Notes under the pieces: model-generated
The model's input: only the letters and a program-made list of their open reading frames with translations
The model's database searches: none
What the model was told of the DNA's origin: nothing
Position numbers and translations under genes: made by a program
Origin: Bacteroidales bacterium
Lineage (GTDB): Bacteria > Bacteroidota > Bacteroidia > Bacteroidales > P3
Assembly: GCA_030523765.1 (NCBI GenBank)
Contig: JAUNHX010000008.1
Location: 1 to 64,000, forward strand
Length of the DNA stretch: 64,000 nucleotides
Reading direction: 5' to 3'
Shown here: positions 1 to 7,089 of the stretch, in pieces
Position numbering within the stretch: the stretch's first letter is position 1
Layout: every line of letters begins with the position of its first letter

Positions 1-135
1 TTCCATCGTCCCCCAGAGATTGTCCCAAGAAGGCAGAGGGAAGTCAATCTATTTAATGATGCGACATATTAACATCTGCAAATATCCCCTTGTCATATTT
101 GATCCAATACTTAATCCGTTAATTAATAGTTTAAT

Positions 136-498
136 ATGATGAAAAAAATTGTTTTGATTGTATTTTCTCTTTGTTTCTTGATGAACACGTCAAGGTGTAC
201 ACATCAAAAGCAAATTGTTGTATGTTGCCCTGAGAGCGAAGAACTTGCTGGAGAATGGTTTACACCACATGCTGCTTTTGTAAAAATAGTATTGAAAGAT
301 AATGGCTCCTTTGATTTCTTCAATTATGATTCAGTTTCTAGTCGCGTGGTTTGTATAGAAGGAAAATATGAAAAAGATAAAAACAAAATTATTTTATTGT
401 TTCAAGATAAAAATCAAATTAATCTCTCTATATCGTGCGATGAAGTTGGCAACTATTATTTAAAAAATGAGGACTTTTATTTTGTAAAAAATGATTAG
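136..498 (+). CDS. small exported protein, possible immunity protein of an upstream Rhs cassette
   Basis: A 120-residue protein with a basic start and a hydrophobic stretch at about residues 4-16, followed by Cys21. This suggests export, but the residues before Cys21 (TSR) do not make a good lipobox, so lipidation is uncertain. The mature part looks beta-rich, with a pattern (GEWFTPHAAF, then DNGSFDFFNYD, then GKYEKDKNKI) that recalls small lipocalin-like Bacteroidales proteins; this is a weak resemblance. Two start codons lie side by side (136 and 139). The gene is clearly more AT-rich than the Rhs DNA downstream, and it sits just before a hairpin and a displaced Rhs cassette. The next cassette has the same arrangement, with an exported AT-rich gene after the toxin-like tip. 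I therefore infer a partner or immunity role for a toxin whose gene lies left of the window. No function is proven. Confidence 0.6.
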   Translation: MMKKIVLIVFSLCFLMNTSRCTHQKQIVVCCPESEELAGEWFTPHAAFVKIVLKDNGSFDFFNYDSVSSRVVCIEGKYEKDKNKIILLFQDKNQINLSISCDEVGNYYLKNEDFYFVKND

Positions 499-564
499 AA
501 GGATATCCGTCACTGCTATATCTACTATGCGGACTCCTATTAAGCCAGAGAAAACAACGGACGA

Positions 565-2370
565 TTGATTATATTAGCACATACAACTGAAGGGGTAAAC
601 CGCACGAAAACCGTGCGGTTTTACCCCTTTGTTTCCACTGGCAATGGTGCAAGTTCCAGAGGAACGCGCAGAACTGACAACGCGCGTGGCCAGCTTGAGA
701 CCAGGCGCTTCCTCTGCTGGACCGAGGACGTAGCTGCTCAAAGCGAGAGCAGAGCAAGCTCGCTTGCTATGCCGAGATGCAGTAACGTCACGGAACGTAA
801 GCACCACTACGCCGGAACCGACCTTTGCGCAAGTCGAGAGCAGAGCCAAGCTTGCTTGAGCTATGCCGAGATGGAGCAACGTAGACGAAGTCAACGCCGC
901 CTGAAGCTGGTGGGAGTCAACAGCTCAGTGGATGTCAATGCCGAATACATGACTGCTGTCTCTACATTGAACGAGCCGACCCTTTATCCCTCGGCCTATA
1001 TGGTGCTGACCAACAAGGGCTACACCAAGCATTACTATGCAGGAACAGAGCGTGTGTGCGCAAAGATTGGTGGAGGCTTTGGCGTCCCCATCACATCTTT
1101 TGATCCCGATGAGGCAGCCGTTGCCGACAGTTTGTTCAATAAGACCCAAAGCAATGTTACCAGCCAGTCTTACCCAGTCAACAACGTGAATGAGATCAAT
1201 ACGTCACGTCCTGAACTCAGCATTCCCATCATGGGCAATCCTACACAGCTCAATGCATCCGTCTATATTGAATTGACTCCGATTCACGATGTCGTCGCTT
1301 CCGAAGAAAGCAGATGGGATAGCGAAGACGAGGTGTTCTACTATCACTCCGATCATCTGGGTAGTGCATCGTGGATTACCGACGGCCTGGGAGTGACAGT
1401 TCAACATCTGCAGTATCTGCCCTTTGGCGAACCTTTCGTCAACCAGCGAGCAGCAGGATCGTTATACGACGAGCGCTTCACCTTCACTGGAAAAGCACCC
1501 CGTAAGGGGATGCGAATACCGCTGAATAAAATCAAATACAATGAGCAACGCGACGAAGAGACCGGATTCTCCTATTTTGGTGCCCGCTACATGGACCACG
1601 AACTGATGACCATGTGGCTCAGCGTCGACCCGATGGCGGACAAGTATCCTAGCATCTCTCCATACAATTATTGCATGTGGAATCCGGTTAAACTGGTTGA
1701 CCCAGATGGAAGAGAAGTTGGAGATTATTATACACGAGATGGAAGATGGGTTGGGCGCGATAAACATCAAGACAATAAAGTTTATGTTTGTGATGGGTTG
1801 GACGAGAAAGGACATCCTATCAACCGAAGTGATTTAGGAATTACACATGACGAATTTAAAGAAAAAGCCGCAACTGTTTATGGAGAAAGTTCTGCTTACA
1901 GATATTCTGGAAATACCGTACCCGAAGATTTAAAACACGAAATGTTTGCTATCGCATCTGTCCACGAAAGGAACTCAAAAGCATACGCTAACAAATCATC
2001 CCAACATGATGAGTACATGAATTGTACTCCAAAAGAGAATAATGGAAATGCTTTTAGGGTCACAGCGAATGCTGCTGTTATAAATGCACTTATGGGAGGA
2101 TTTGATTGGAGCTATGGAGCAACACAATGGGATGGGGCGGAACAGGCCTTATTCTCCGCAGATGACAATAGGCGTTCTACGGGGAAATGGGAATTGCATA
2201 TGAATACAATGGGATGGACAATATCCGACGAACATTACGAAAAGTGGAAAACCAATGTTGGAAAAGGATTCAAAGCTCCACAAGAAAAAGAAGCTGTTTA
2301 TGCCCCAAACAAAGGGCAGAAAAGGCTGGTCTCCACCGCAGTATATTGCCGTACGATTTTCTGGAAATAA
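565..2370 (+). CDS. 5'-truncated Rhs core cassette with variable C-terminal toxin-like domain
   Basis: An open frame of 601 codons with no convincing start. It opens at a TTG, runs through the hairpin repeat (590-629), and has no Rhs N-terminus or secretion domain, so I read it as a displaced cassette. Rhs features are clear: YYHSDHLGSASWITDG near residue 259, DERFTFTGK, RDEETGFSYFGARYMDHEL, MWLSVDPMADKYPSISPYNY, and the closing DPDGRE near residue 379. After this junction composition shifts to AT-rich and a 217-residue tip begins, with AATVYGESS near 435 and GATQWDGAEQ near 518. The VYGE segment faintly recalls SleB-type cell-wall hydrolases; I do not assign an activity. Residues about 54-111 are scrambled by palindromic inserts, and a second insert splits FTGK from RDEET. 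It could be a silent reservoir that recombines with a complete rhs gene elsewhere. Confidence 0.75.
   Translation: MIILAHTTEGVNRTKTVRFYPFVSTGNGASSRGTRRTDNARGQLETRRFLCWTEDVAAQSESRASSLAMPRCSNVTERKHHYAGTDLCASREQSQACLSYAEMEQRRRSQRRLKLVGVNSSVDVNAEYMTAVSTLNEPTLYPSAYMVLTNKGYTKHYYAGTERVCAKIGGGFGVPITSFDPDEAAVADSLFNKTQSNVTSQSYPVNNVNEINTSRPELSIPIMGNPTQLNASVYIELTPIHDVVASEESRWDSEDEVFYYHSDHLGSASWITDGLGVTVQHLQYLPFGEPFVNQRAAGSLYDERFTFTGKAPRKGMRIPLNKIKYNEQRDEETGFSYFGARYMDHELMTMWLSVDPMADKYPSISPYNYCMWNPVKLVDPDGREVGDYYTRDGRWVGRDKHQDNKVYVCDGLDEKGHPINRSDLGITHDEFKEKAATVYGESSAYRYSGNTVPEDLKHEMFAIASVHERNSKAYANKSSQHDEYMNCTPKENNGNAFRVTANAAVINALMGGFDWSYGATQWDGAEQALFSADDNRRSTGKWELHMNTMGWTISDEHYEKWKTNVGKGFKAPQEKEAVYAPNKGQKRLVSTAVYCRTIFWK
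589..641 (+). repeat. hairpin repeat at Rhs cassette junction, copy 1
   Basis: A 53-bp sequence that recurs at 3159-3211 with two mismatches. Its core (590-629) is a strong hairpin: left arm AAGGGGTAAACCGCACG, loop AAAAC, right arm CGTGCGGTTTTACCCCTT, with a single bulged base. It is followed by TTTGTTTCCACTGG, so on the plus strand it could act as a terminator. In both copies a truncated Rhs coding frame begins directly after the hairpin and an AT-rich exported gene ends shortly before it. It therefore marks cassette boundaries. Confidence 0.85.
735..798 (+). repeat. in-frame palindromic insert, copy A
   Basis: Contains a perfect inverted repeat AGCAAGC/GCTTGCT with a 2-base spacer (753-768), followed by GCCGAGATGCAG and GTCACGGAACGT. 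The same sequence lies at 3660-3725 with few changes. It is translated within the Rhs frame as SESRASSLAMPRCSNVTER. It replaces Rhs sequence that in the second cassette reads NRMHAAVDDKHYSYYAY. Confidence 0.75.
829..897 (+). repeat. in-frame palindromic insert, diverged copy B
   Basis: A diverged copy of the element at 735-798. It keeps GTCGAGAGCAGAGC, the palindromic core (CAAGC TT GCTTG) and CTATGCCGAGATG. It is read in a different phase relative to the element (SREQSQACLSYAEM), showing that the element can be translated in more than one frame without stops. It lies 30 bp after copy A and directly before the resumed Rhs sequence RRLKL. Confidence 0.65.
1495..1548 (+). repeat. second type of in-frame insert inside the Rhs core
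   Basis: About 18 codons (APRKGMRIPLNKIKYNEQ) lie between FTGK and RDEET. From my knowledge of Bacteroidota Rhs proteins these motifs are normally contiguous (FTGKERDEETG). The 5' part folds into a small hairpin (GCACCCC, GTAA, GGGGATGC). The second cassette carries a related insert at the same site (VPCKEVRTPLTSITFSE, about 3213-3266). Confidence 0.5.
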
Positions 2371-2385
2371 AAAAAACTATAAGAC

Positions 2386-3138
2386 ATGAAAAGACAAATA
2401 ATACACTTATTGATATTTTGTGCTGGATTCTCTTTCTCCTACGCTCAGGATGTGGTCCTATGGAAGCACGTCCTCCGATTCAGCAATGACAGATACCTTC
2501 CCAAAGGATATATAGTTTCCAAATATTGCTATCGCGATAATGCTTTATTGTACAAAATGGATTACTCTGACAACGGATGGCAAGTATACGATTCCATCAC
2601 TTATACAAATCACAATGGCTTATGGTGTATATCGCACTTTGAACCAGATACGAATTCTCAATTATATCTCCGTTTTTCAGACACCGTAGAGAATCCTTTT
2701 CGCATGAATAAAGACATTCTCTATGTCTCGGATAAATATAAAATACTACCTCGTTACTTAAATGAGATAAATAATCTTATTTACCAATGCAAAACAGATT
2801 CTCTCCCTCCCATTTTGAAACATTTGGACGACACTTGCTGCTATTTATTTGTAGATGTTGACCACACTCTCTTGTTCGCTGATTATGGCATTCCAATGGA
2901 AGAATCGCTAGAAAGATATTGTTGTCATATTGGAAGGTCTGGCGAATATGACTGGGATAAATTCATTTTTTCCAACTACACCGTTATACGTTATTTTGAA
3001 CATGATAAATACGGCAACATTTGCAAGGTGACAATCACGAGGACGCATAATAAAACCAAAGAAAGTGTCACTTGGATAGAAAGTTTCTTTTTAACATTTG
3101 TTGGGCAATATTCAAATAGAGAATACCACAATAATTGA
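2386..3138 (+). CDS. exported protein, candidate immunity/partner of the upstream Rhs tip
   Basis: A 250-residue protein of unknown family. The first 21 residues (MKRQIIHLLIFCAGFSFSYAQ) form a clear signal peptide with an AQ cleavage end typical of Bacteroidota, so it is exported. The mature part is rich in Tyr, Asp and Cys (a CC pair near residue 147, another near 181) and has no motif I recognise. It starts 15 bases after the stop of the Rhs toxin-like tip, on the same strand and with the same AT-rich composition. In Rhs and CDI systems this is where the cognate immunity gene lies, so I infer an immunity role, acting in the periplasm or envelope if the signal peptide works. Its stop is followed within about 25 bases by the second hairpin repeat. 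The alternative is an unrelated cargo gene carried with the cassette. Confidence 0.65.
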   Translation: MKRQIIHLLIFCAGFSFSYAQDVVLWKHVLRFSNDRYLPKGYIVSKYCYRDNALLYKMDYSDNGWQVYDSITYTNHNGLWCISHFEPDTNSQLYLRFSDTVENPFRMNKDILYVSDKYKILPRYLNEINNLIYQCKTDSLPPILKHLDDTCCYLFVDVDHTLLFADYGIPMEESLERYCCHIGRSGEYDWDKFIFSNYTVIRYFEHDKYGNICKVTITRTHNKTKESVTWIESFFLTFVGQYSNREYHNN

Positions 3139-3158
3139 CCCAGCCATCACATAAAACC

Positions 3159-3211
3159 GAAGGGGTAAACTGCACGAAAACCGTGCGGTTTTACCCCTTT
3201 GTTTTCACTGG
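3159..3211 (+). repeat. hairpin repeat at Rhs cassette junction, copy 2
   Basis: Second copy of the 53-bp repeat at 589-641, differing at two positions. The hairpin occupies 3160-3199, with the same arms and loop AAAAC (one C-to-T change turns an arm base pair into a mismatch). It follows the stop of the exported gene at 3138 and precedes a mosaic Rhs fragment. Confidence 0.85.
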
Positions 3212-4163
3212 TGAGGTACCCTGTAAGGAAGTACGAACGCCTTTGACTAGCATTACATTCAGCGAGGAACGCGATGAGGAAACCTGTTACGGCTATTGCG
3301 ACGACAATCAGCCGCACGCCGTGAAGCGTATGTTCGACTACAATAATGGAATGCTTTATGATATGCGTTGGGATGAGGCCGGAAACCTCGGGCAGGTGAG
3401 TATGTCCATGACTGGAGAAATGTTCGATGCCGGACGCTTCCTCTACTAGACGGAAGACAACCGTATGCACGCTGCCGTGGACGACAAACATTACAGCTAC
3501 TATGCCTACGACCACAGCGGTGAACGCCGCCTGAAACTGACAGGCGACAACAAGTTGCTGGATGTCAACGCCGACTTTATGGCCACCTATACAATACTGA
3601 ACAAACCGACCCTCTATCCCTCGGCCTACATGGTGCTTACCGAAAAAGGCTACACCAACGTTACGGAAGTCGAGAGCAGAGCAAGCTCGCTTGCTTTGCC
3701 GAGATGCAGTAAAGTCACGGAACGTAAACACTACTATGCCGGCACCGAGCGCGTGGCAGCACGTCTCGGCGGTGGCGGATTGGATGCCATGTATCGCATT
3801 GTCGGTACCGATAACACCATTCAGGACAATGCCAATTTGCTCTTTGACCAAAGCCTCGAACAGGTAAACAACCGTCTGCTTCCTGAGAATGACCTCAACT
3901 GTATAATGCAGAACGTTTTTGCAAAAGAGGAATTTGGCCACCCAATTGAAGGCATTCCATACCAGATGCAAGCAAACGTTCGGTTTAACCACAGTCAGTT
4001 CAAGGACATGATGAACAGTATGCTGGCCGACCTCAGCCAAGGCGATGAACCCGATGTCTATTTCTACCATTCCGACCACCTCGGCAGTGCCAGTTGGATA
4101 ACCGACGGAGGCGGCAACCCCGTCCAACATCTGCAATATCTGCCCTATGCTTATTGCGCTTAG
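3201..4163 (+). pseudogene. Rhs core fragment interrupted by an in-frame TAG and truncated at the 3' end
   Basis: A continuous Rhs frame broken by one stop, TAG at 3447-3449. In the first cassette the aligned codon is TGG (FLCWTED against FLY-stop-TED), so this is a W-to-amber change. The two halves lie in the same frame. The sequence is a mosaic: it opens with the core end (RDEETCYGY), then jumps to an upstream YD-type segment (DYNNGMLYDMRWDEAGNLG). It continues through RRLKLTGDNKLLDVNADFM and YHSDHLGSASWITDG, and ends at a stop right after QYLPYAYCA, before the toxin junction. It carries a palindromic insert (3660-3725). With no start, no tip and an internal stop it is most simply a decayed cassette. 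Suppression of the amber codon is a remote alternative. Confidence 0.8.
3660..3725 (+). repeat. in-frame palindromic insert, copy C (66 bp)
   Basis: Compared with the first cassette, where GYTK is followed directly by HYYAGTERV, this copy has exactly 22 extra codons (VTEVESRASSLALPRCSKVTER) between GYTN and KHYYAGTERV. The insert holds the perfect inverted repeat AGCAAGC/GCTTGCT. It begins with GTTACGGAA and ends with GTCACGGAACGT, so a 9-bp imperfect direct repeat lies at its ends. The clean insertion defines the element's boundaries. Confidence 0.8.
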
Positions 4164-4272
4164 ACCCAACCAACAGGAGGTCATGAGTACCGATTAATAA
4201 AGATAATTCAACGAATAACGACTGTTGCGAAGAAACAAACACCTACTTGCGTTTTTCCTCGCATGACCCTCG

Positions 4273-4346
4273 CTTTAGCCATACATCACCCTTACTTCAG
4301 CCATACTCATGAGTATGGCTGAAGTAAGGGTGATGTATGGCTAAAG
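4273..4346. repeat. perfect 74-bp palindrome with no loop
   Basis: Two 37-base arms are exact reverse complements, meeting at CTCATGAG with no spacer (centre between 4309 and 4310). The left arm begins CTTTAGCCATACATCACC and the right arm ends GGTGATGTATGGCTAAAG. Each arm contains AGCCATAC twice, so it is also internally repetitive. No flanking gene obviously needs it as a terminator, and no U-tract follows. Confidence 0.9.
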
Positions 4347-4463
4347 GGGGTAAGATTGGGAAAAAATAGGGGGGGGTATATGGGTTGTTGCATATTTTAT
4401 GAGGTTGAGTTGTCTGCTCAAAAAACGCTGTTATTACAGTCTCTTTTTCGGGAATTTATTACT

Positions 4464-4489
4464 CAAAAAGGAAAATAACTTCCTTTTTG
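4464..4489. terminator. symmetrical hairpin, possible bidirectional terminator
   Basis: A perfect 10-bp stem, CAAAAAGGAA and TTCCTTTTTG, with loop AATAAC. The A- and T-rich outer ends would give a U-tract on either strand. Confidence 0.45.
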
Positions 4490-4521
4490 TAGCTGTAAGT
4501 TATTGGTTTTTAATAAAAAAT

Positions 4522-4558
4522 AAGGAAGAAACAAAAAAATGAAGTTTCTTCCTTGTTT
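4522..4558 (+). terminator. rho-independent terminator-like hairpin
   Basis: An 11-bp stem (AAGGAAGAAAC at 4522-4532, GTTTCTTCCTT at 4543-4553) followed by GTTTTTG. It is oriented to stop plus-strand transcription leaving the Rhs region before the next gene. Confidence 0.5.
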
Positions 4559-4648
4559 TTGCTCCTAAACCGTCGTATATTCGCAAATCGAATTCGCAGA
4601 TAAAAGTCTTGGTGATGGACTTTAAAAAGATTCCTATTACCCATTATC

Positions 4649-4686
4649 TTTTTTGTTTAATCGGTGACTTTATAGAACTCACCTGT
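4649..4686 (+). repeat. AGGTGGGTTCTA-family element, partial copy a
   Basis: Shares TTTTTTGTTTAATCGGTGA and then TATAGAAC-C with the fuller copy at 7130-7192. The left arm is missing or degenerate. It lies about 55 bp upstream of the next start codon. Confidence 0.55.
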
Positions 4687-4740
4687 AATGCTTCTAGACT
4701 CTTTTGAAGTTATCAAGTAACCTTTATAAATAATTGAAAT

Positions 4741-5631
4741 ATGGCAAGAATAAGACAAATTGGCCCCGGTTGTTTCACCTCGGGCACTATCGATGGTATT
4801 ATTTATTATGTTCGTAATGGCAAAACATACGCACGTTCTACTCCTATCGTACCTGCTAGCTCATACACAAACCCTGCGGCTCGGGTAAGACAGGCGCTCT
4901 TTAAGATGGTTCAGATGCACCTAAAGTTTCATCTTCGAACTATCAAGCAAACTATCTCGCCTGCGGAGAGCGGCTCCTCTTCGAATCGCTACTTTAAGCT
5001 GAACAAGAATGGTTTGTACACTGCGTTAGCACCATTGGCAGAGCTTTATGTGGGTGGGAAGGAGATCACTATCGTGGATGTAGAGCAGGCTATTTGCAGC
5101 TATGCTGCCGATAATCCGAATAGTATCAAGATAGCTGCTTTGAGTGGTTATGGAGAGGTATACCTTACAGGCGACTGGCCCAACACTATCACCCTCAACG
5201 CCAAAACGGGTGGCAGCACCATGATTATCGTTGTGTCGGAGAAAGGGGCAACAACTACGATTACTGCTACAAGCAAAACTACAAAGTCCCCTATTAATAA
5301 TACTGTGGAGTCCGCTAATAGCAACACAACGCAGACTCTTGACAATAACACTATGCAGACTCCAGTTAATAATACCGCGCAGACTGCCGTTAATCAATCC
5401 TCGAAAACCTTTGTTAGCCATACTAGGGAAGCTCCTAGAGGTGAGGTTAGAGAACCATCTACTCACCACATAGCGGAACAATCAGCTACTACTAGAGCGG
5501 GCACTTCTGCTTCTAGCGTTGAGCCGCAGTTGGGAAAGATAATTGCACCTACACTAACTAGTATCAATAACTATAGAGGAGGCAAACAAGTGGGAATAAC
5601 ATACGCTAGTGATAATGCCTCATTTTATTGA
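4741..5631 (+). CDS. DUF6266-like protein with Thr/Asn-rich repeat tail
   Basis: A 296-residue protein. The first 160 residues (SGTIDGIIYYVRNGKTYARS, then NPAARVRQALFK) match what I recall of the Bacteroidota DUF6266 family, whose members begin with a G-YYVRNGKTY-R motif; the function of the family is unknown. No signal peptide or membrane segment is seen. Residues about 175-230 are low complexity (Thr, Asn, Gln, Val), built from five 8-residue units encoded by a 24-bp tandem repeat (5293-5412), which may vary in number between strains. The last 70 residues show no motif. The gene stands alone. A copy of a small inverted-repeat element lies upstream, and another hairpin overlaps its stop codon, so it may have moved as a unit. 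Family assignment is moderate. Confidence 0.6.
   Translation: MARIRQIGPGCFTSGTIDGIIYYVRNGKTYARSTPIVPASSYTNPAARVRQALFKMVQMHLKFHLRTIKQTISPAESGSSSNRYFKLNKNGLYTALAPLAELYVGGKEITIVDVEQAICSYAADNPNSIKIAALSGYGEVYLTGDWPNTITLNAKTGGSTMIIVVSEKGATTTITATSKTTKSPINNTVESANSNTTQTLDNNTMQTPVNNTAQTAVNQSSKTFVSHTREAPRGEVREPSTHHIAEQSATTRAGTSASSVEPQLGKIIAPTLTSINNYRGGKQVGITYASDNASFY
5293..5412 (+). repeat. 24-bp minisatellite inside a coding region (5 units)
   Basis: Five in-frame 24-bp units encode INNTVESA, NSNTTQTL, DNNTMQTP, VNNTAQTA and VNQSSKTF. Units 2-4 are the most alike. The length keeps the reading frame whatever the copy number. Confidence 0.75.
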
Positions 5632-5671
5632 GGTGGGATCTAGAAAAAAACTAGAACCCACCTCAATAAAA
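5623..5671. repeat. inverted repeat overlapping the stop codon, AGGTGGGTTCTA family copy b
   Basis: 21-base arms (5623-5643 and 5651-5671) with one mismatch around an A7 loop. The arms contain AGGTGGGATCTAG and CTAGAACCCACCT. The stop codon (5629-5631) lies inside the left arm. It could serve as a transcript-end hairpin. Confidence 0.75.
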
Positions 5672-5702
5672 GATGTTGCAAATAAGCTGATAATAAAGGA
5701 TT

Positions 5703-5895
5703 ATAGGTAACCTCTAAAAATTGCTTCAATGTGATTTTGGAGAAGATTTATAGCAGATTGCTCCGTTGAACGAAGGAGTATAGCGGGCTATATGACTGAG
5801 TGAAACTGAGCAAGATGCATAAATCAATCCAAAAGCACTGAAAGTATGGTTATTATTATTCCTTTTCATACGTGGAATTTTTAGAGGTTACCTAT
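5703..5895. mobile_element. 193-bp MITE-like element with 20-bp perfect terminal inverted repeats
   Basis: The ends ATAGGTAACCTCTAAAAATT (5703-5722) and AATTTTTAGAGGTTACCTAT (5876-5895) are exact reverse complements. The interior has no open frame of note. Both ends adjoin TA, compatible with the TA target preference of IS630/mariner-type elements, but the surroundings are AT-rich so this is weak. It ends 7 bp from the stop of the convergent gene. No transposase or second copy is present in the window. Confidence 0.6.
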
Positions 5896-5901
5896 AGCTT
5901 T

Positions 5902-7089
5902 TTACCTTTGTATTACCAAGGGATAGGAGCCTATATGAGGAAGAAGGATTTGATAGGTACCTGAGGGCAGTGATGACAGATCGATGATGCCTCCAAGAAG
6001 GTGTGTCTTCATGACGATACGACCACTCAGATCAATGATGCTGACGGGAATATTATCGAGACCTTGGATGTTGACAAAAGAGGAGGCTGGATTGGGATAA
6101 ACGGTGATGTCAATTCCGCGAGCCGATTCAATGCTATTGGCATCGGAGTAGTGATAACTGTAATCCCACGCAAAACCAAAATGCTGGTTGGCATCGAGCT
6201 GATACCAGTGTTCGATATCGAAGGCGTGGGTGTTGCCCAAGTTGGCAGGTCGCATCTGTTCGGGCAGCCAAGGCATCAGCGTCTCATCGAGTAGATAGTT
6301 GTTGTATTCGTATTCGCTACGCGAAACCTCTTGCATCGTATTGTAGGTACTATGACGGGTGCAATTGCCGTTGGCATCGTAGGTAAATGCTTGGTACCCT
6401 CCGTTGCTCCATGAGTAACCATCCCAAAGACTGTCGTAAATGTATGCCACCTTCTGCTGATTGGTATAAGAGTAGTTGAGTTTTTCGCTGGGTTCCCATG
6501 AGCCGGTGATGTTGTAGGACCACAGTTCGCTGCTTAATAGGCTATTGTTATAGGTATAGTCTACCTGCTGGAAGGGTTGGCTGTCGCCAGCCATGACGAG
6601 CTGTGCTTGTACCATCTGTCCATCGCTATTATAAGTATAGGTATATACACCGCCCAGTTGGAAGGTGCCGCTAAAATTGTTGTAGTTGGTACGTGTAGCC
6701 ATCAGTCCTTGGCTGTTGTAGGTGTACTCAAGATAGTAAACATGCTGGTAAGCCTGGTTAAGCAGTTGATAGCCATCAATGCGAACCATCTGTCCCTGAC
6801 TGTTGTAGCGGATAGAATAGTAAACATCGATATCGCCTATAATTACTTGATGCATTGCCACCACCTGCTGCTGACTGTTGTAGCTGAAGGTGGTACGCTC
6901 ATAGCCATCATCGGAGACTATATATTCCAGTTTTTGACTATAGGTGCCTTTGCTGTTGTGCAAAAGGAATTGTTCGAAAGGACGGAATCCTGGCGTTGTG
7001 GGCTCCGACAGAGAACGGTAAACATGTTGTTGTGCCGAAAGTGGAAGGAGGATCAACAAGAGGGCGAAAAAGGATAGGGCGTGTTTCAT
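5902..7089 (-). CDS. T9SS type A sorting-domain protein with YD-like repeats
   Basis: A 395-residue secreted protein. A signal peptide (MKHALSFFALLLILLPLSAQ) is followed by a body of tandem aromatic repeats, such as YTYNSQGLMATRTNY and YTYNSDGQMVQAQ, close to the YD/RHS-type repeat pattern. The last 70 residues form a T9SS type A C-terminal sorting domain: ITVYPNPASSFVNIQGL, then a GRIV core, then LPSGTYQILL and a short final strand. Such proteins cross the outer membrane by the type IX system and are anchored or released at the surface. The gene is monocistronic, between a MITE-like element downstream and a hairpin element upstream. Its specific role is unknown; the sorting domain is secure. 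Confidence 0.85.
   Translation of the reverse strand: MKHALSFFALLLILLPLSAQQHVYRSLSEPTTPGFRPFEQFLLHNSKGTYSQKLEYIVSDDGYERTTFSYNSQQQVVAMHQVIIGDIDVYYSIRYNSQGQMVRIDGYQLLNQAYQHVYYLEYTYNSQGLMATRTNYNNFSGTFQLGGVYTYTYNSDGQMVQAQLVMAGDSQPFQQVDYTYNNSLLSSELWSYNITGSWEPSEKLNYSYTNQQKVAYIYDSLWDGYSWSNGGYQAFTYDANGNCTRHSTYNTMQEVSRSEYEYNNYLLDETLMPWLPEQMRPANLGNTHAFDIEHWYQLDANQHFGFAWDYSYHYSDANSIESARGIDITVYPNPASSFVNIQGLDNIPVSIIDLSGRIVMKTHLLGGIIDLSSLPSGTYQILLPHIGSYPLVIQR

Follow-up and report, generated by a model that had tools for sequence, protein, structure and literature searches.

A short palindromic element inserted in Rhs remnants and dispersed within and outside genes of Bacteroidales

The stretch of DNA analysed here (the window, 64,000 nucleotides) carries two Rhs-like cassettes near its start, and within the second of them the coding sequence holds a palindromic insert that leaves the reading frame intact. 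An earlier note, made from the letters alone, had described this insert as an exact 66-bp, 22-codon element at 3660-3725, with relatives in the first cassette, and had likened its behaviour to that of the Rickettsia palindromic elements, which sit in genes and are translated. The locus therefore raises the question of whether the insert is an ordinary piece of an Rhs protein or a copy of an element that moves, and, if it moves, in what form it does so and how genes accommodate it.

The palindromic insert proved to be real, and comparison with an empty site corrected its extent. In G087 the corresponding site is contiguous, with flanks 91% and 84% identical to ours that overlap by a 2-bp AA, so that, this AA ambiguity aside, the insert (copy 3) occupies 3659-3727 on the + strand of the second Rhs remnant, with AA (3657-3658) directly 5' of it; the empty site is contiguous in other Rhs genes as well. 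The in-frame insertion is hence 69 bp, or 23 codons, and not 66 bp and 22 codons. It is read in phase +2 as NVTEVESRASSLALPRCSKVTERK, the first and last codons being common to the target. A covariance model built from 13 copies of the element matched the window at three places, all on the + strand: 728-801 (copy 1, 76.7 bits), 819-895 (copy 2, 88.1 bits) and 3655-3728 (copy 3, 82.9 bits). The core CGAGAGCAGAGC, with at most one mismatch, also occurs three times in the window against 0.18 expected, and three or more occurrences were reached in 0 of 100 shuffles. The two relatives in the first cassette were in this way borne out, as was the remark that one of them, at 819-895, is translated in a different phase, +1 where the other copies use +2, and is still free of stops. 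Copy 1, with ends at 732-800 (+) by analogy with copy 3, belongs to the 74-nt class of the model, is read in phase +2, shares 92% identity with copy 3 across 78 nt and lies just beyond the gene as called automatically. Copy 2, with ends at 823-894 (+), likewise by analogy, belongs to the 77-nt class and shares an ORF with copy 1; a near-identical relative is found in an Rhs gene of G008 (L263), inserted at YYAYDHSG^ERRLKL. The sequences GTTACGGAA and GTCACGGAA, which had been put forward as the bounds of the element, turned out to be particular to copy 3 and not general in the family. As candidate target duplications, these direct repeats were rejected because other copies do not keep them.

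Both Rhs cassettes look like remnants. The first Rhs-like ORF (565-2370, + strand, 601 aa) holds copies 1 and 2, and the second (3465-4163, + strand, 232 aa) holds copy 3; the second cassette has an in-frame stop at 3447-3449, upstream of its ORF, and ends early. We read the pieces of Rhs at copies 1 and 2 as out of order, which suggests that these copies mark points of rearrangement. For the C-terminal part of the first ORF (1700-2370) the second cassette offers no equivalent, a situation known from polymorphic Rhs proteins, and to judge from its sequence this part may be a variable effector-type domain. Two stretches that are 94% identical (578-641 and 3148-3211) each form a GC-rich, terminator-like hairpin ahead of an Rhs cassette and are perhaps cassette boundaries, and a perfect 74-bp palindrome (4273-4346; 37-nt arms, no spacer) lies just 3' of the second remnant. 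A plasmid search with the Rhs piece as query returned no match.

We then turned to the distribution of the element beyond the window. The model gave 20 matches in the host genome at E<=10, 18 of them at E<=0.01, and at the latter threshold the genus was matched in 92 of the 99 genomes sampled, with at least 48 copies in the genome that carries most. Across the order, 27 of 149 genomes, from 25 of 133 genera, matched at E<=1e-4. Among the matches listed after a pattern scan and rescoring with the model, record titles included Prevotella, Prevotellaceae, Bacteroidaceae, Muribaculaceae and Cryptobacteroides, together with Alistipes, Rikenella, Phocaeicola coprophilus, Dysgonomonas and Hoylesella. 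Outside Bacteroidales, the order to which most record titles point, a Mobiluncus porci record was matched (L168:1947-2024, 61.4 bits) and a bin labelled Lachnospiraceae (L141) held three copies; these reflect either transfer, convergence or mixed assembly. Putative viral contigs yielded 35 stretches by pattern and 42 model matches at E<=1e-4. Two of these contigs, L364 and L344, hold six and four copies in less than 10 kb, and two of the L344 copies lie in sense orientation inside two similar long ORFs. Many of the sampled genomes are metagenome bins. Elements often lie near contig ends (for example, G104:C29, G017:C17 and G083:C1); they, or the repeats around them, may break assemblies, and true copy numbers may be higher. 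An Rfam search of positions 1-6000 of the window, with E up to 5, gave no match at the element copies and only sub-threshold, chance-type matches elsewhere.

Within genes, in-frame inserts were found in about ten families, several of which have empty sites at the DNA or protein level. Translated contexts and Pfam matches place the element at four sites in Rhs, at two sites in an IS5-family transposase (DDE_Tnp_1, DUF772) and in a macro-domain protein, an AAA/DUF4143 ATPase and a polysaccharide deacetylase; the Pfam match of a DUF4248 host gene, at 27.0 bits, is right on the cut-off. A shikimate-kinase-like protein and a pyruvate:ferredoxin oxidoreductase fragment would, in our own reading, be further hosts, and a LuxR-type ORF (L326) is a doubtful one, with poor coding support upstream of the element. 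The same insert appears in five protein clusters of a large protein database. The transposase ORFs that carry it are open throughout in G043, G056 and G112, and the IS copy in G064 has a stop within the element, so that not every genic copy is clean. With this exception, the many copies and the clean in-frame insertions in unrelated genes that the earlier note had looked to as support are present. The pattern that it had named as pointing the other way, copies confined to rhs genes at one fixed position, is excluded. That the insert is an ordinary segment of the Rhs protein, lost from other copies, might be suggested by the several copies that Rhs carries; it is refuted by the occurrence of the element in many unrelated genes and, for the most part, outside genes, and retains practically no probability.

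What the copies have in common is a fold. Three helices are formed: an outer stem (P1) encloses CGAG, an apical hairpin (P2) and a second CGAG, and is followed by a short 3' hairpin (P3) and, in most copies, by TAA. In copy 3, on the + strand, P1 pairs 3658-3664 with 3709-3715; the tandem G.A motif and P2 span 3671-3703, with CGAG at 3671-3674 and 3700-3703 and P2 pairing 3676-3685 with 3690-3699; and P3 pairs 3717-3719 with 3723-3725 around a GAA loop, the AA end coming next. Elsewhere P3 consists of at least three pairs closing a GAA-like loop. The inverted repeat AGCAAGC/GCTTGCT, on which the palindrome was first recognized, is indeed paired, although the true stem is longer and is one of the three helices. 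Changes on both sides were seen in 14 of 21 pairs among the 13 model seeds and in 20 of 21 among 95 distinct copies from the genus, namely in all seven pairs of P1 (the sequence of which varies from copy to copy, with 95.5% of cells paired), in 10 of 11 pairs of P2 and in all three of P3. Compensatory cells in these 95 copies numbered 284 compared with 66 (sd 6.6) after shuffling, a value reached by none of 500 shuffles, and sliding the pairing partners abolished the signal; the conserved hairpin that the first reading of the locus had also called for is thus well supported. Because the 95-copy alignment had been fitted to the covariance model, it matters that RNAalifold, applied to an unfitted MAFFT alignment of 48 copies, returned the same helices, with compensatory cases in 20 of 21 predicted pairs.

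The two CGAG strands oppose each other as C-G, G.A, A.G and G-C. In the 95 distinct copies the outer pair of this motif is C-G in 86, U-A in 6 and U-G in 3, the inner pair is G-C in 91 and A-U in 4, and GA and AG are each kept in 94. Since the pairing of CGAG is that of a tandem G.A helix, it is possible on the sense strand only. On that strand, G-U pairs in the helices also outnumber A-C (38 vs 21; p 0.036, calculated on copies that are not independent). Taken together, the sense-only tandem G.A and the excess of G-U over A-C indicate that the acting form is probably the sense single strand, either RNA or DNA.

Filled and empty sequences were paired at 16 distinct sites (19 rows examined); a wider comparison of flanks against fetched loci gave at least 236 rows, with tandem-copy artefacts among them. 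In the empty sequence, the two letters directly upstream of the insertion point are AA at 13 of the 16 sites and TA, AG and GA at the other three; at two of the 13 the left side of the filled copy is no longer AA. At most sites AA is present at both junctions, a 2-nt match that is ambiguous as a target site duplication, being too short for telling a duplicated target from insertion beside AA. The ends are discrete, reading CRTT... on the 5' side and, in most copies, ...TAA on the 3' side. Where a genic site can be compared with an empty counterpart, the net gain is 69 nt (74-nt class) or 72 nt (77-nt class), and intergenic copies are also of other lengths, from 71 to 79 in the model. Among the matches listed, the closest filled and empty pair comes from an IS5-type transposase: the empty copy in G070 matches its two flanks at 98% and 100% identity. 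A MITE unrelated to the element also provides an empty site: it lies in the window at 5702-5896 (no strand assigned; 21-bp perfect inverted ends) and has further copies in G000:C36 and G000:C9, the latter of which carries the palindromic element at G000:C9:3301-3376. Head-to-tail arrays without spacer were seen in at least four examples; insertion at the AA with which the element itself ends would produce them.

Some loci have a more complex history. In L279, L290, L294, L296 and L165, two element sites, separated by about 115 bp, lie within a longer dispersed repeat, and each is found both filled and empty. L270, L312 and L314 share a near-identical element and a similar right flank (half of a DUF4248 gene), and the left flank is quite different in L312 and L314, where the sequence has the left end of the element as an apparent rearrangement breakpoint. 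In all four genic groups, synonymous sites included, divergence is lower in the element than in its flanks; in the DUF4248 group, leaving out one row of unrelated left flank, the element differs by 0.9% and the flanks by 17.5%. Such low divergence fits allele transfer, homing, nucleotide-level constraint and recent insertion alike. Constraint at the level of the peptide, as assessed by pN/pS, was not upheld: values of 0.44-0.66 in three element groups (the fourth had no changes), compared with 0.07-0.49 in the flanks, derive from too few changes and are confounded by the fold.

Genic copies are strongly biased in strand. Of the 108 matches, the four weakest (E above 1e-5) were excluded from gene, frame and strand counts. 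Automatic gene prediction, in DNA of which 76% is coding, places 26 of 107 copies within genes, and 25 of these are in sense orientation; the count requires an ORF running through the element, and genes broken by it are scored as intergenic, so that it describes only intact genes with read-through. We therefore also applied a test that does not depend on an open frame, in which coding sequence was sought on both sides over 150 nt. It accepted 17 of 120 copies, 15 of them sense; 14 of the 15 sense copies are in frame, and 13 of those 14 are free of stops. Four copies depart from this pattern: the transposase of G064 contains a stop, L313 is a weak frameshift call, and L268 and L314 (stop) are called antisense, L268 in contradiction to an empty homologue in the host genome (L047). 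A further 65 copies were drawn from viral contigs, which contributed 32 of their 42 matches, and from other genera; of these, a codon score trained on the genus accepted five as genic, all five sense. A very improbable account of these genic copies is that they are cut from the mRNA or skipped by the ribosome. It would suit their mostly sense orientation, in which they fold in the mRNA, and the stop inside the element in one IS copy; removal or skipping, however, needs neither a kept frame nor an open one, and nearly all the sense copies have both. Judging from their open frames, the genic copies are presumably translated.

The sense bias is not due to stops, because the antisense frames are usually open: in 41 distinct non-genic copies of the 74-nt class, antisense frames are open in 39 and 34 copies, and the used frame, +2, in 27. 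What differs is the character of the peptides. Mean hydropathy in non-genic copies is -0.63 in +2 and -1.3 to -1.47 in +1, compared with about 0.05 in -0 and +0.73 to +1.1 in -1, so the frames in use give hydrophilic peptides and the antisense frames neutral to hydrophobic ones. Selection against hydrophobic loops is the reason that we prefer for the bias. Intergenic copies show no clear orientation preference relative to their neighbours, both of which are co-directional in 23 cases, both opposed in 29 and mixed in 22.

The macro-domain gene offers the most detailed view of a single site. Among the best 120 of 8000 homologues scored, the insert measures exactly 0 residues in 65, 23 in 54 and 46, as a tandem pair, in one (P0077); as these are the 120 homologues nearest to an insert-bearing query, the proportions should not be taken as frequencies in a population. 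When the tree is built with the insert omitted, 19 changes are implied at this one site, 11 of them forced by well-supported branches, and the presence of the insert differs even within close pairs (for example, P0042 and P0118). Repeated insertion, exact excision and allele exchange by homologous recombination are all possible sources of this pattern. In the AlphaFold model of the macro-domain protein, residues 42-68 have pLDDT <50 and lie between two helices; the whole model is weak (mean 61.7), so this result simply agrees with a loop. The 0/23/46 states in one gene also bear on the idea that the element is not mobile at all and is instead a host RNA motif, a regulatory or processing signal spread by recombination. 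Strong structural conservation, the predominance of non-genic copies and the elements that share a right flank and differ in the left would all be in keeping with such a motif. It would not account for the precise empty sites, which are found in unrelated genes, in a MITE and in IS elements, for the lack of a clear orientation preference relative to neighbouring genes or for the macro-domain series, and we regard it as quite improbable.

As a whole, the observations are probably best explained by a very small palindromic element of Bacteroidales that is mobile but not autonomous. Such an element would move as the folded single strand of its sense sequence, ssDNA or RNA, handled by an enzyme acting in trans. 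Its own AA end would be a fresh target, giving rise to arrays and to the double insert in one macro-domain protein. Exact loss may also occur, since the ends of the element are two adjacent hairpins. Insertions that break genes would mostly be purged, and the survivors within genes would be mainly those in sense orientation, with a net length divisible by 3 and a readable frame that encodes a hydrophilic, probably disordered loop. A bolder version, which we offer only tentatively, holds that the two hairpins alone define exact gain and loss, that the module is tuned for read-through and that genes throughout the order switch again and again, and reversibly, between zero, one and two copies of the same 23-residue loop.

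No gene family near the elements stands out as a mover: the largest lies within 2 kb of an element in nine regions, and in our judgement none of the four neighbouring families listed resembles one. Elements of the IS200/IS605 type have subterminal hairpins and asymmetric ends and insert by a short motif. The Bacteroidales element has that type of architecture, with subterminal hairpins, asymmetric ends and insertion beside a short motif, and could be a REP element mobilized by a RAYT/Y1 (HUH) transposase, through single-strand peel-and-paste 3' of a short target. Some match to PF01797 occurs in 62 of the 99 genus genomes. However, the host genome, which is 95.8% complete, is without a Y1 transposase, eight genomes that are at least 90% complete and hold at least 10 copies have no Y1 match, copy number and Y1 number are uncorrelated across the 99 genomes (Spearman rho -0.09), and CGAG is paired rather than an unpaired tag; we consider this explanation unlikely. 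As a candidate mover, Y1/RAYT is unsupported, being absent from the host and not tracking copy number. Unlikely too, if slightly less so, is a tiny retro-element: a reverse transcriptase acting in trans would copy sense RNA into DNA at a nick, where the UAA end of the RNA would pair with TT on the target strand. The sense-strand structure with its tandem GA speaks for it, and AA at both junctions at most sites is what TT priming could leave; exact loss, on the other hand, would be unexplained.

Protein-coding palindromes have been a long-standing oddity of Rickettsia, the genomes of which are decaying and which are hard to culture. A family that extends across an order of the gut and rumen, with empty sites, several host genes and a 0/1/2 series in one enzyme, makes questions about movement and the keeping of frame testable. 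It also bears on whether such inserts help proteins to gain new loops. For practical purposes, gene calls and protein alignments of Bacteroidales hold a recurring foreign insert of 23-24 residues. Among the titles and abstract starts listed by searches of an open-access library, and in selected passages, there was no report of this element.

Several known systems invite comparison. MITEs are likewise small, non-autonomous and dispersed, but the ends of the element (CRTT.../...TAA) are not inverted repeats, its two hairpins are different, and no cognate IS was noted. The GTAG and CGTC super-families of REPs are described, in the passages that treat them, as 20-40 bp long and tagged at one end by an unpaired GTAG or CGTC; the CGTC class is without a dedicated transposase, and Bacteroidetes are among the hosts (PMC3733652). 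REPs resemble the present element in being short palindromes that are mostly intergenic, with some within ORFs (PMC3733652), whereas the Bacteroidales element has CGAG twice, paired and flanked by covarying pairs, and three helices. PINSR of Prevotella intermedia, according to the relevant passages a 188-bp repeat that is intergenic, probably not protein-coding and found in four species only, is dispersed in relatives of Prevotella and similarly lacks terminal inverted repeats, but by that description it is set apart by its greater length and intergenic position (PMC4755523). Closest in behaviour are the Rickettsia palindromic elements (RPEs), which the passages concerned portray as palindromes inserted in frame in genes, in ten families and, in the first of the two papers, of about 150 bp (PMC10969869, PMC3733652). 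As far as these accounts go, the likeness that the earlier note had drawn mostly holds, in that the Bacteroidales element also appears as a dispersed palindrome, inside and outside genes, that adds an in-frame extra peptide. It differs from the RPEs so described in being one family, with a net 69-72 nt in genes compared with about 150 bp, and in being order-wide; it has three covarying helices and a tandem-GA motif, it inserts mostly next to AA, and its empty sites can be demonstrated. Given these differences in length and host, it is compared with RPEs by description and is not classed among them; by analogy, the Bacteroidales element seems to work like RPEs, with an architecture of its own.
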